Below the pieces are notes generated by a model. The model was not told the DNA's origin. It did no database searches and was given only the letters and a program-made list of their open reading frames with translations. From positions 62,001 through 126,000 of the forward strand of contig NZ_QWEZ01000002.1 in assembly GCF_003864255.1 (NCBI RefSeq): a DNA stretch of 64,000 nt. The letters run 5' to 3'. Made by a program: the position numbers and the translations under genes. Below are positions 15,910 through 20,972 of this stretch, piece after piece. Each line of letters opens with the position of its first letter. Position 1 is the first letter of the stretch. Source of the stretch: Aestuariirhabdus litorea. Lineage in GTDB: Bacteria > Pseudomonadota > Gammaproteobacteria > Pseudomonadales > Aestuariirhabdaceae.

Positions 15910-17196
15910 ATGAAAGTACTGGTAATTGGCAGCGGCGGGCGTGAGCACGCACTGGCCTGGAAAGCAGCGCAGGACCCCCGGGTAGAGCAGGTGTTCGTCG
16001 CCCCAGGCAATGCGGGCACCGCCATCGAGCCGGGCCTCAGCAACGTCGATATCTCCGTGGACGACCAGCAGGCACTGGCGGATTTCGCCACCGAGCAGGG
16101 CATCGACCTCACGATCGTCGGTCCCGAGGGGCCCCTGGTCGCCGGCGTTGTCGACTATTTCCAGAGCCGGCAGCTGGCCTGCTTCGGTCCCAGCAAGGGG
16201 GCGGCCCAACTGGAGGGCTCCAAAGCCTTCACCAAGGATTTCCTCCACCGCCACCGGATACCCACCGCAGCCTACCGGAACTTCACCGAAGTGGAGCCGG
16301 CGCTGGCGTACTTGCGTGAGATGGGAGCCCCCATTGTGGTCAAGGCCGATGGCCTGGCGGCGGGCAAGGGCGTTATCGTGGCTGAAACCTTGGCGCAGGC
16401 GGAAGAAGCGGTACGCGACATGCTGTCCGGCAACGCCTTCGGCGACGCCGGCTGCCGCGTTGTGATCGAGGAGTTCCTGACCGGCGAAGAGGCCAGCTTC
16501 ATCGTCATGGTCGACGGCAGCAATGTACTGGCGATGGCCACCAGCCAGGACCACAAGCGCGTGGGTGAAGGCGATACCGGCCCCAACACCGGAGGCATGG
16601 GGGCCTACTCGCCCGCACCGGTGGTGACCCCCGAGATCCACCAACGCATCATGGAGGAGGTGATCTACCCGACTGTGAAGGGGATGGCGGCCGAGGGCAA
16701 CACCTACACCGGCTTCCTCTACGCCGGCCTGATGATCGATGACTCCGGCACCCCCAAGGTGATCGAATACAACTGTCGTTTCGGCGATCCCGAGACCCAG
16801 CCCATCATGCTGCGCCTCAACTCCAGCCTGGTGGCTCTGTGTGAGGCAGCTCTCGACGGGCGCCTGGACCAGGTCAGTGCCGACTGGGACCCCCGCGCCA
16901 GTGTTGGCGTGGTGCTGGCAGCCGGCGGCTATCCCGGCGACTACGCCAAGGGAGCCCCGATCAAGGGACTCGAGGCGGCCACCAGTGAGTTCGGTAAGGT
17001 GTTCCACGCCGGCACCCGCCTTGAGCAGGACTCAGTCGTGACCAGCGGCGGGCGGGTACTCTGTGCCACCGCCCTGGGTGACAGCGTCAGCACTGCGCAA
17101 CAGGCGGCCTACCAGCTGGCCGACCGCATCAGCTGGGAGGGGATCTACCGCCGTAACGACATCGCCTGGCGGGCGATCGAGCGCGAGCAGCAGTAG
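15910..17196 (+). CDS. purD: Phosphoribosylamine-glycine ligase (GAR synthetase)
   Basis: 428 residues, a normal full-length enzyme. N-terminal MKVLVIGSGGREHALAWKA, ATP-grasp core with KADGLAAGKGV (about 141-151), and EYNCRFGDPETQ near residue 287. It joins glycine to phosphoribosylamine in the second step of purine synthesis. AGAGGG lies a few bases before the ATG. It is co-directional with purH and probably on the same transcript. A hairpin without a T run follows the stop. Confidence 0.97.
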   Translation: MKVLVIGSGGREHALAWKAAQDPRVEQVFVAPGNAGTAIEPGLSNVDISVDDQQALADFATEQGIDLTIVGPEGPLVAGVVDYFQSRQLACFGPSKGAAQLEGSKAFTKDFLHRHRIPTAAYRNFTEVEPALAYLREMGAPIVVKADGLAAGKGVIVAETLAQAEEAVRDMLSGNAFGDAGCRVVIEEFLTGEEASFIVMVDGSNVLAMATSQDHKRVGEGDTGPNTGGMGAYSPAPVVTPEIHQRIMEEVIYPTVKGMAAEGNTYTGFLYAGLMIDDSGTPKVIEYNCRFGDPETQPIMLRLNSSLVALCEAALDGRLDQVSADWDPRASVGVVLAAGGYPGDYAKGAPIKGLEAATSEFGKVFHAGTRLEQDSVVTSGGRVLCATALGDSVSTAQQAAYQLADRISWEGIYRRNDIAWRAIEREQQ

Positions 17197-17288: not shown

Positions 17289-20048
17289 GTGACCCGGTCC
17301 AGACAACAGATGAGAACCCTTCATGGACCCATGGCCAGCTGCCTGTTATGGCTGCTCGTTCTCATCGCCCCGTCCGTTTTCGCTATGGTTGAGGTGCCCA
17401 CCGGCAGCTACCATATCAACCTCACTCGCAGCCTCGACACCTATCTGGACGACAGCGGTAATCTCTCCCTTGAGGAGCTCCGCTCGGACTATTACGTCAA
17501 CCGTTTTTCCCCATCACGGCTGGAGTACCTGCAACTGGGGTCGACCGATGCTACCGTATGGATCCGCATCCGACTCAACAGTACCCAGGCCACCCTCACC
17601 CCCTACCTGATGGTGACACCTCCGGATATCGGTGAGCTGGAACTGTTTCAACGCAACCAGCAGGGTTGGACCAGCACCCTGACCGGCGCCAACCACCCCT
17701 ACCCCACGCGACCCATCGATACCCGGGACTTCATCTTTCCGCTGGCGGCCAGTGACGTGCCCCAGGAAATCTATCTGCGCCTGCGATCCGCACGCCCCCT
17801 GAACATCAGTGTCCACCTGGCCAGTGCCGACCAACTGATTGGGCATGAGCACTCGGCCCACTGGTTCAGCGGCGTGCTGTTTGGGCTATTTTTGGCCACG
17901 CTCATCTATAACCTGATCGCCTGGAGCGGCTTTAGGGACCGCAGCTTCATCTATCTCTCCCTGTTTATGCTTTGCGGGTTACTGTTCCAGGCCAGTTGGC
18001 AGGGCCTTCTTGCCGAACTACTACCGCAGTGGCCCCGTTTACAGTCCTATACCTACACCCTGTCGATACTGGCCGGCACTGCCCTGGGCTCCCAGCTGAT
18101 ACGCCGTTTTTTTTCGACCCACGAAACCCAACCCCTGATCGACCAGAGCCTGCGCCTGCTTGTGATCATCCCGCTACTAGCGAGCCTCCTGGTTCCCTTT
18201 CTGGGTGATCGGTTTCCGGTTGGTGCGGCGCTCCTTATGGGTACCCTCTCCTCTACCCTCATTTTCGCCTCAACGCTCTACTACATCCGCAAAAACTTTC
18301 CCTGCGCCATTGATCTTTTCGTTGCCCAAACCCCTTTTGCCCTCGCCGCCCTGCTCAATTTCCTGGCAGCGCTTTCCCTTGTCCGCATAGATCCCCAGGT
18401 ACTGGAGTGGGCCATCATCAGCATCGCCAGCCTGACCATGATCGGTGAGTCCTGGGCCTTCACCAAACACCACCGCCGACTGCGCCGGCAAAAAACCCAG
18501 GCGGTCGTGCAGGACCGCATCCGCACCACCTCGGCCATTGCCAAAAGTGAGCTACTTTCGAAGATCAGTCACAGCCTGCGTGGCCCGATGAACGGCATTC
18601 TGGGCATGAGCGAGCTCCTGCTAGAAAGCAGCCTGACCCCTAAGCAGAAAGATTATGTGAGTACCATACACAATTCGGGTAACGACCTGCTCAACCTGCT
18701 GAACGAAGTGCAGGACATCAGCAAGCTCGAAACCGGCAAAATGATACTCAGCGATGTGCGCTTCGAACTGCACCCCCTTATTGACTCCTGCCTCGACCTC
18801 TACAAGGTAACGGCCGAACAGCGCGGCATTGAGTTGATCAGCTACGTGCAGTTAGGCATACCCGAAACCCTCAATGGCGACCCGGTCCGTCTCAAGCACG
18901 TACTACTGGCGATGCTGGCACAATCGTTTCGCACCATCGAACAGGGTGAGGTACTGCTCTCGGTAACCCTGGTCTCCTCCAGCGAGACACCGCGCATCCT
19001 CTTTACCGTTAAAGACAGTAGCAACAGCATCAGCGAAGCGGAACGTTCCTTTCTCCTCAACACCCGCATCGACACCCACAACTTCCTCGATAGCAGCAAC
19101 ACCCAGTACTCCCTCGGACTGCTGGTATCACGCCACGTCATCAACCAGATGGGCGGCACACTGGGTATAGAGTCGACCCCCGGCGTCGGTAACCGGTACT
19201 GGTTTACCCTGCCCTACCTGCCCATCGATGAAGCCGCCTCTGATACCGGATCTTTCAATTTCTCCGGCATACGGGCTCTGGTGGTGGATGACAATGACAC
19301 CTGCCTTAAGGTGCTGACCCAGCAGTGCCTGGCACTGGGTATGGAGGTGAGCCCCTGCCTGGATGGGAAAGAGGCGCTGGCATTACTGCGTACCAAAAGC
19401 CACCTCAACAGCCCCTTTGACCTGGTAATCCTGGACCACAATATGCCGGGTATGAACGGTATGGAGCTGGCCGCCAAGATCAAGGAGGACCCGGCCTTCT
19501 CCGAGCTGGTGATCATCATGTTGACGGGCATCAGCAACACCCCCAGCCGCATCATGTCACGCAATGCCGGCATCCAGCGCATTTTGACCAAGCCGGTTGC
19601 CAACTACATGCTGCGCACCACCCTGGCGGAGGAGCTTCAAAACCACCTGCCGGCCAAGCCGGGCGGCGAGCCCGGGTCGGAAACCCTACTGGTGGTGACT
19701 CAAAACAGCGCCCTGGGGCAAGAGGTACAGCAGCTCGCCCGCCAGCGCCAGATAGAAACCAGTATCGCCATCAGCGCCAGCCAGGCACTGGACACCCTGC
19801 GCAGCGGTGACTATCGGCTGGTATTGATCGACTGCTCGAGCCGGGTCCACGATGGCTTTGAGGTCGCCCAGCGCATTCGCCGCTGGCAGGAAGCCCAGGG
19901 ACTGAGCGCGGTCCCGTTGGTGGCGATGAGTGAACAGAGCAACCCCGACTTCGATCAACAGCTGCGCCTGGTTCAGATCAACGGCCTGCTCCCCCTCCCG
20001 CTGACATCAGCCCAGCTGGACAAACAACTTGACCATTGGCTCTCCTGA
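17289..20048 (+). CDS. retS: RetS-like hybrid sensor kinase (7TMR-DISM, HisKA, degenerate ATPase, two receivers)
   Basis: 919 residues from a GTG preceded by GGGAGG. Signal peptide about 15-32; 7TMR-DISMED2 sensor about 34-175; seven-helix domain about 190-395; HisKA with His428 (SKISHSLRGPMNG); ATPase about 525-642; receivers about 661-785 and 799-918. Architecture, length and position right after purD match RetS of P. aeruginosa, which restrains GacS. The transmitter is strikingly degenerate: HSLRG replaces HExRT, the N-box Asn is Gln545, DTGxGI reads DSSNSI (576-581) and the second glycine loop reads QYSLGL (606-611). Receiver 1 is intact (Asp667/668, Asp716, Thr746, Lys768); receiver 2 keeps Asp848 but has lost its acidic pair and Lys. 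Naming rests on synteny and domains. Confidence 0.8.
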   Translation: MTRSRQQMRTLHGPMASCLLWLLVLIAPSVFAMVEVPTGSYHINLTRSLDTYLDDSGNLSLEELRSDYYVNRFSPSRLEYLQLGSTDATVWIRIRLNSTQATLTPYLMVTPPDIGELELFQRNQQGWTSTLTGANHPYPTRPIDTRDFIFPLAASDVPQEIYLRLRSARPLNISVHLASADQLIGHEHSAHWFSGVLFGLFLATLIYNLIAWSGFRDRSFIYLSLFMLCGLLFQASWQGLLAELLPQWPRLQSYTYTLSILAGTALGSQLIRRFFSTHETQPLIDQSLRLLVIIPLLASLLVPFLGDRFPVGAALLMGTLSSTLIFASTLYYIRKNFPCAIDLFVAQTPFALAALLNFLAALSLVRIDPQVLEWAIISIASLTMIGESWAFTKHHRRLRRQKTQAVVQDRIRTTSAIAKSELLSKISHSLRGPMNGILGMSELLLESSLTPKQKDYVSTIHNSGNDLLNLLNEVQDISKLETGKMILSDVRFELHPLIDSCLDLYKVTAEQRGIELISYVQLGIPETLNGDPVRLKHVLLAMLAQSFRTIEQGEVLLSVTLVSSSETPRILFTVKDSSNSISEAERSFLLNTRIDTHNFLDSSNTQYSLGLLVSRHVINQMGGTLGIESTPGVGNRYWFTLPYLPIDEAASDTGSFNFSGIRALVVDDNDTCLKVLTQQCLALGMEVSPCLDGKEALALLRTKSHLNSPFDLVILDHNMPGMNGMELAAKIKEDPAFSELVIIMLTGISNTPSRIMSRNAGIQRILTKPVANYMLRTTLAEELQNHLPAKPGGEPGSETLLVVTQNSALGQEVQQLARQRQIETSIAISASQALDTLRSGDYRLVLIDCSSRVHDGFEVAQRIRRWQEAQGLSAVPLVAMSEQSNPDFDQQLRLVQINGLLPLPLTSAQLDKQLDHWLS

Positions 20049-20051
20049 CCC

Positions 20052-20972
20052 ATGACACTGGCGGCCCTGCTGTTTGCCCTGCTGGGGGAGACGGTGCATC
20101 CCGCCCCCGCGCCGTTGGCGCTGCTCCAGAGCCTTCCGATAGAATCCAGCGACTCAGGCCTGCACCTCTCGGCCCTCAGCCTTTGCGACGGCACGCTGCT
20201 GACCCTATCCGACCGCCACGACCGGCAGGTCTATCGGCTTGAAATCGACCCCACCGCTGCACTGGCCAGGACCCAGGTCTGGCGTACCCTTTCGCCCCCG
20301 GCCCCGGCGGATTGGGGCTGGCGGCAAAGGGTCTCATCCTGGTTTGCCGGCCGCCTGTACGATTGGGAAGGGATTGCCTGCCGGGGCGATCGGCTCTACC
20401 TCCTCAGCGAGCAGCTCAACGACCTGCTCATCAGTAGCAACCGGGGTGAGTCCTGGTTGCAGCTACCCCGCCAGCAGTTTGTCAATCAAGGGGGCGTTCT
20501 GCGCTCCACCAACGCCGGTCTCGAGGGTCTCACCTTCAACGGGCAGGGGCTGGTGCTGGCGGCGGAGCGGGAGGCCCGCGGTCTGCTACAGTTCGTGCCG
20601 GAAAAGGGGGGCTGGCAGCTGCAGTGGCTCCACAGCCCGCTGCCACCGGAACCGCCGCTGGCCGGGCGCAGCCCTGACTTCTCCGGCCTCTGGTTCGAGT
20701 CGCCCTGGCTCTACACACTGGAGCGGAACCTGTTCCGTATCTGCCGCAGGGATACCCGCTTTCAGCAGCAGCGCTGCTGGAGTTACGCCGATACCGAACT
20801 CGCCCCCGAGCGGCGCTATCGCACCGAGTTCGGGGTTGCGGAGGGGATCGCCGCCGATGCGCAGCGCATCTACCTGATTACCGATAACAACGGCGATGCG
20901 CGGGTCGCGGACGCCGATGACCGGCGTCCCCAGCTATGGATTTTCGCCAAGCCGGCGGACTGGCGGGAGTAA
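20052..20972 (+). CDS. Phytase-like / esterase-like secreted protein
   Basis: 306 residues. Hydrophobic N-terminus (MTLAALLFALLGETVHPAPA) consistent with a signal peptide. The body has LSDRHDRQVYRLEI, YDWEGIAC, NAGLEGLTF and VAEGIAADAQRIYLITDNNG, the repeated 'x-EG-[IL]-x' blade pattern of the esterase-like phytase propeller family (PF13449 type). Probably periplasmic; activity unproven and family members are poorly characterised. It begins three bases after the RetS-like gene, so the two are likely cotranscribed. Its stop codon abuts the stop of convergent dnaB with no base between. Confidence 0.65.
   Translation: MTLAALLFALLGETVHPAPAPLALLQSLPIESSDSGLHLSALSLCDGTLLTLSDRHDRQVYRLEIDPTAALARTQVWRTLSPPAPADWGWRQRVSSWFAGRLYDWEGIACRGDRLYLLSEQLNDLLISSNRGESWLQLPRQQFVNQGGVLRSTNAGLEGLTFNGQGLVLAAEREARGLLQFVPEKGGWQLQWLHSPLPPEPPLAGRSPDFSGLWFESPWLYTLERNLFRICRRDTRFQQQRCWSYADTELAPERRYRTEFGVAEGIAADAQRIYLITDNNGDARVADADDRRPQLWIFAKPADWRE

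Follow-up and report, generated by a model that had tools for sequence, protein, structure and literature searches.

RetS, a membrane sensor that curbs the master regulator GacS, is a model for the control of one sensor kinase by another. DivL of Caulobacter promotes the kinase activity of CckA and listens to DivK; its sensor and locus are other than those of RetS. What DivL has in common with RetS is that it works on another histidine kinase (CckA) and needs no kinase activity of its own to do so (cited in PMC9491836). In P. aeruginosa, the HATPase domain of RetS is degenerate and RetS is unable to autophosphorylate (Francis et al., PMC5992135). The same work described three mechanisms of action on GacS. 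In mechanism 1, GacS phosphorylates receiver 2 of RetS (at D858) and not receiver 1 (D713); in mechanism 2, the RetS transmitter acts as a phosphatase, for which T428 of the HExxT motif is needed; mechanism 3 is contact between RetS and GacS (PMC5992135). According to Francis et al. (PMC5992135), mechanism 3 does not reach the GacS-P that LadS produces. A heterodimer of the RetS and GacS DHp domains has been crystallized (PMC12148439), and in P. brassicacearum, receiver 1 does not fall within the GacS receiver cluster (PMC8175716). The PAO1 mutant retS(T428A,HDA), which has mechanism 3 only, showed increased biofilm formation, no swarming and severe attenuation in Galleria, a deletion-like phenotype (PMC5992135).

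The window, i.e. the whole stretch of 64,000 nucleotides that was analyzed, carries at 17289..20048 an open reading frame of 919 aa with a GTG start, coding for a hybrid pseudo-histidine kinase (+ strand, as are all the features given below). The gene is a true ortholog of retS, and the identification made in the preliminary description was borne out by synteny, structure matches and phylogeny. The gene is located directly downstream of purD (15910..17196), which marks retS loci by synteny, with a gap of 92 bases. The purD-retS order is common to f34, the sister family, and to nearly all Pseudomonadaceae loci sampled, those of Pseudomonas included; the exceptions were L045, with no purD in its 1.5 kb flank, and L048, where the flank cut off all but the end of purD. 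In a PDB search, the closest solved structures were those of P. aeruginosa RetS (6dk8 and 7n0e, E about 4e-63), and the AlphaFold model of the transmitter matched P. aeruginosa RetS chains, 7n0e_B of the RetS-GacS complex among them, with a TM score of 0.81-0.83 of the target. We built the tree by a quick method from an alignment of the transmitter and receiver 1 without the catalytic columns, using GacS as the outgroup. The clade of f20, f34, f7 and f1, which unites the window protein with Pseudomonas and Halopseudomonas RetS, had an SH-aLRT value of 99, while the grouping of the window protein with f34 and f7 was weaker (90). The family of the window was represented by three species, all of one genus. 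Tree, synteny and structure rule out an unrelated kinase family. A LadS identity, that is, a single-receiver 7TMR kinase feeding GacS, is ruled out by the two receivers and the position in the RetS clade. The NCBIfam matches of the window protein (TorS, BarA, ArcB) were all far below the cut-off.

The domain architecture is that of RetS. Pfam matches were found in the order 7TMR-DISMED2 (residues 47-178), 7TM (193-381), HisKA (418-483), a weak HATPase_c (530-643, 41 bits) and two receivers, the second degenerate yet alignable. We placed the periplasmic 7TMR-DISMED2 sensor at aa 40-178 (17406..17822; PF07696, E 1.5e-22), the 7TM membrane domain at aa 190-385 (17856..18443; PF07695), the DHp/HisKA domain at aa 418-484 (18540..18740) and the catalytically degenerate HATPase (CA) domain at aa 485-645 (18741..19223). 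These are followed by receiver 1 at aa 658-782 (19260..19634) and receiver 2 at aa 798-919 (19680..20045). The AlphaFold model had a mean pLDDT of 82 and a pTM of 0.47, with low pLDDT around residues 590-610, the region of the G2 box.

Alignment with RetS and GacS agreed with what had been read from the transmitter before. The phospho-His, H428, is kept within an H-box that reads HSLRG (aa 428-432, 18570..18584), where the Glu and the Thr of HExxT are both gone. The N-box has Gln545 instead of Asn (18921..18923), the G1 box is DSSNSI (aa 576-581, 19014..19031), and the G2 box is QYSLGL instead of GTGLGL (aa 606-611, 19104..19121); the N, G1 and G2 boxes for Mg-ATP binding are thus lacking. Each of these columns matched the canonical RetS/GacS position, and no displaced catalytic residues were found elsewhere in the domain. 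Conserved neighbors anchor every column, which rules out misread or shifted motifs. The transmitter therefore has neither the kinase signatures nor the HExxT phosphatase motif, as had been proposed. The active site of receiver 1 is complete (D667/D668/D716/T746/K768), again as described earlier. The statement that receiver 2 keeps only Asp848 needs a correction. D848 is present, and the metal-binding acids (replaced by T804/Q805) and the Lys (replaced by Leu903) are lost; however, Ser881 is also kept, at the Thr/Ser position. Thus, the set of D/E, D, D858, T/S and K that makes a complete receiver-2 active site reads TQDSL here. Such a domain resembles the pseudo-receivers of Bourret et al. 2025 (PMC12632262) in its missing active-site residues and differs from them in that the phosphorylatable Asp is retained.

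The preliminary description regarded the protein as a naturally stripped-down pseudokinase. This holds for the loss of the HExxT motif, but the dead ATPase is no specialty of this protein, being typical of RetS and already published (PMC5992135). P. aeruginosa RetS (PA4856; PDB 6dk7/6dk8/7n0e) shares with the window protein the order 7TMR-DISMED2/7TM/HisKA/HATPase/REC1/REC2, the degenerate ATPase, the phospho-His and about 46% identity over the transmitter. Among the Pseudomonadaceae RetS, the N-box Asn was present in 42 of 43 and the G1 box was mostly like DSGRPL or DSGLPM. The novelty lies in the phosphatase motif and the receiver-2 active site, which have both been lost. P. aeruginosa RetS has HExxT with T428 and a receiver 2 phosphorylated at D858 (PMC5992135), compared to HSLRG and a pseudo-receiver 2 in the window protein. 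All 43 Pseudomonadaceae RetS had the H, E and T of HExxT, where the window protein has S for E and G for T, and all 43 had EDDTK in receiver 2, compared to TQDSL. The losses recur in the genus-mates (HNLRG and AQSF in G001, HSLRG and SQAF in G002, with TQ or TP plus Leu in receiver 2), so the genus has N as well as S in place of the Glu, and sequencing error or damage in one strain is ruled out. RetS of the sister family (L034-L038) also lacks the HExxT Thr (HELRG or HQLRS, with the Glu lost too in one genus) and the N-box Asn, and has a G1 box of DTSEGM or DSSAGI; on the other hand, its receiver-2 active site is complete. Since the sister family lost the Thr and kept receiver 2, the losses look stepwise.

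Both gacS and gacA were found in the genome of the window. GacS has the cache, HAMP, HisKA, HATPase, receiver and Hpt domains, gacA is located beside uvrC, and CsrA is present as well. In 24 of the 25 genomes searched, those with degenerate RetS included, GacS was found and aligned, and its kinase, receiver and Hpt motifs were intact except for minor substitutions; the one genome with no GacS match at the threshold was G094. We also observed that the GacS protein L228 has a degenerate receiver-like stretch at aa about 535-650, between the HATPase and the true receiver. No LadS-type kinase turned up in the genome of the window: RetS is its sole DISMED2 histidine kinase, and its other DISMED2 proteins are either GGDEF-type or have no HisKA. 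The genomes of the sister family have RetS only, while those of Pseudomonadaceae have further DISMED2 kinases. In the genus-mate G001, a 1002-aa 7TMR hybrid kinase encoded on contig 2 (L282) ends in an AraC-like helix-turn-helix stretch; this DISMED2 protein has no counterpart in the genome of the window.

Of the 47 families of the order that we examined, roughly 18 had RetS-type kinases linked to purD. Among 45 scored proteins, HExxT (with E or D allowed) was present in 30, the receiver-2 active site in 32, the N-box Asn in 20 and the receiver-1 active site in 41. The fewest state changes on the tree were 8, 7, 7 and 3, respectively, although with long branches the deep joins of the order tree are unsure and the outer families are perhaps not all RetS in function. 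HExxT and the receiver-2 site are both missing also in L170, L171 (f5), L206 (f38) and L222 (f23); the double-loss state is therefore not unique in the order, but within the strict RetS clade it occurs only in f1. Several proteins at these loci depart further from the RetS plan. For example, L155 and L175 (f7) have HELRT and receiver 1 and no receiver 2 at all, and L155 has no HATPase Pfam match whatever. L162, L218 (f30) and L195 (f26) are purD-adjacent 7TMR-type proteins without the phospho-His, L195 being also without a recognizable receiver active site.

The reading that we favor, at about even confidence, is that the window RetS would be a contact-only antagonist of GacS, with mechanisms 1 and 2 lost in its lineage. 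The 7TMR sensor would determine which state the transmitter adopts, and RetS would pair through its DHp helices with the DHp of GacS, replacing the GacS homodimer; this pairing would block the trans-autophosphorylation of GacS (mechanism 3). The phosphatase action that depends on the HExxT Thr and the receiver-2 phosphate sink would both be gone. Mechanism 3 is a candidate on account of the DHp domain, conserved within the genus at 97% and 90%, and the presence of GacS. We infer the binding to GacS, the loss of each activity and the sign of regulation from sequence. As the PAO1 mutant with mechanism 3 only behaved much like a deletion, contact would have to weigh more in the window RetS than it does in PAO1.

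The preliminary description also kept phosphate siphoning among the possible actions. This claim is weakened, because the sink of P. aeruginosa RetS is receiver 2 (PMC5992135), the domain that here lacks two metal-binding acids and the Lys; siphoning was thus probably lost too. To persist, it would need re-routing to receiver 1, with D716 phosphorylated by GacS or by an Hpt protein. We think this unlikely, even though receiver 1 is catalytically complete, evolves slowly and, of all catalytic elements of the locus, is the one most often retained across the order: GacS of P. aeruginosa does not use receiver 1 (PMC5992135), receiver 1 of P. brassicacearum is outside the GacS cluster (PMC8175716), and receiver 1 is equally conserved alongside an intact receiver 2, so that conservation need not mean a take-over. 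A window RetS that no longer takes part in the GacS network and uses receiver 1 to pass its own signal on to another partner would fit the conservation of receiver 1 and DHp next to a decaying GacS-facing receiver 2. However, DHp, through which RetS binds GacS in P. aeruginosa, is conserved best of all the domains, and GacS/GacA are retained; we consider such an exit quite unlikely. The sign of the action could also be reversed, with the RetS-GacS pairing mainly blocking the phosphatase side of GacS and RetS acting as a positive regulator, as was proposed for Azotobacter vinelandii RetS (PMC11330419). With negative regulation the documented rule in P. aeruginosa, we regard this as improbable.

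The many missing catalytic residues might suggest a retS that is decaying and functionless, a view to which we give very little credence given the constraint within the genus. Within-genus identities were 97% and 90% in DHp, 83% and 71% in CA, 87% and 84% in receiver 1, 60% and 61% in receiver 2, and 59% and 42% in the sensor. The NG86 dN/dS values in CA and receiver 1 were about 0.05-0.07, ratios that are rough with dS near saturation. The frame is open throughout the genus (in G002 as two contig pieces). The constraint on DHp, on the catalytically dead CA domain and on receiver 1, together with the intact partner GacS, leads us to reject a pseudogene. In relative rate comparisons of the window's family with f34 (Pseudomonadaceae outgroup; 16 triplets, which are not independent), receiver 2 had 33-44 unique changes in the window's family and 8-15 in f34 (p from 8e-3 to 4e-7). 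No rate difference between the two families was found for DHp and receiver 1, and for CA, 7TM and the sensor a difference appeared in isolated triplets only. The conserved CA and the accelerated receiver 2 show that selection continues to act on the dead ATPase domain and has relaxed on receiver 2. The slow evolution of receiver 1 points to a further job, beyond what contact-only antagonism of GacS would cover. Attention is thereby drawn to receiver 1, the best preserved active site of the locus, which is not known to act in GacS control.

For the order as a whole, we tentatively suggest that the pseudo-histidine kinases encoded by purD-linked retS may form a series that is still evolving. The phosphatase motif and the sink would have disappeared time and again in separate lineages, with GacS remaining catalytically intact. 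The conserved core would consist of contact through DHp and a complete receiver 1, and the genus of the window would be the contact-only endpoint. In the closest lineages, the losses track the absence of LadS-type kinases, which would explain why dephosphorylation of GacS-P became dispensable. As GacS-P from LadS escapes mechanism 3, mechanisms 1 and 2 would be less needed without LadS; our hypothesis is that the absence of LadS made them so, with very few independent events behind it. The loci would amount to a natural separation-of-function series, with the window RetS apparently short of two of the three mechanisms, the sister family short of one and other families short of only the other, which makes them a test series for the sufficiency of contact.

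Immediately 3' of retS, starting 3 bases past its stop, is a gene for a perhaps exported protein with a phytase-like esterase domain (20052-20972, + strand; PF13449, E 3e-11). Within the genus, each of the three species has it at this position (55% and 47% identity), and it was not found beside retS in the f34 or Pseudomonadaceae loci. It may be co-transcribed with retS in the genus of the window only.
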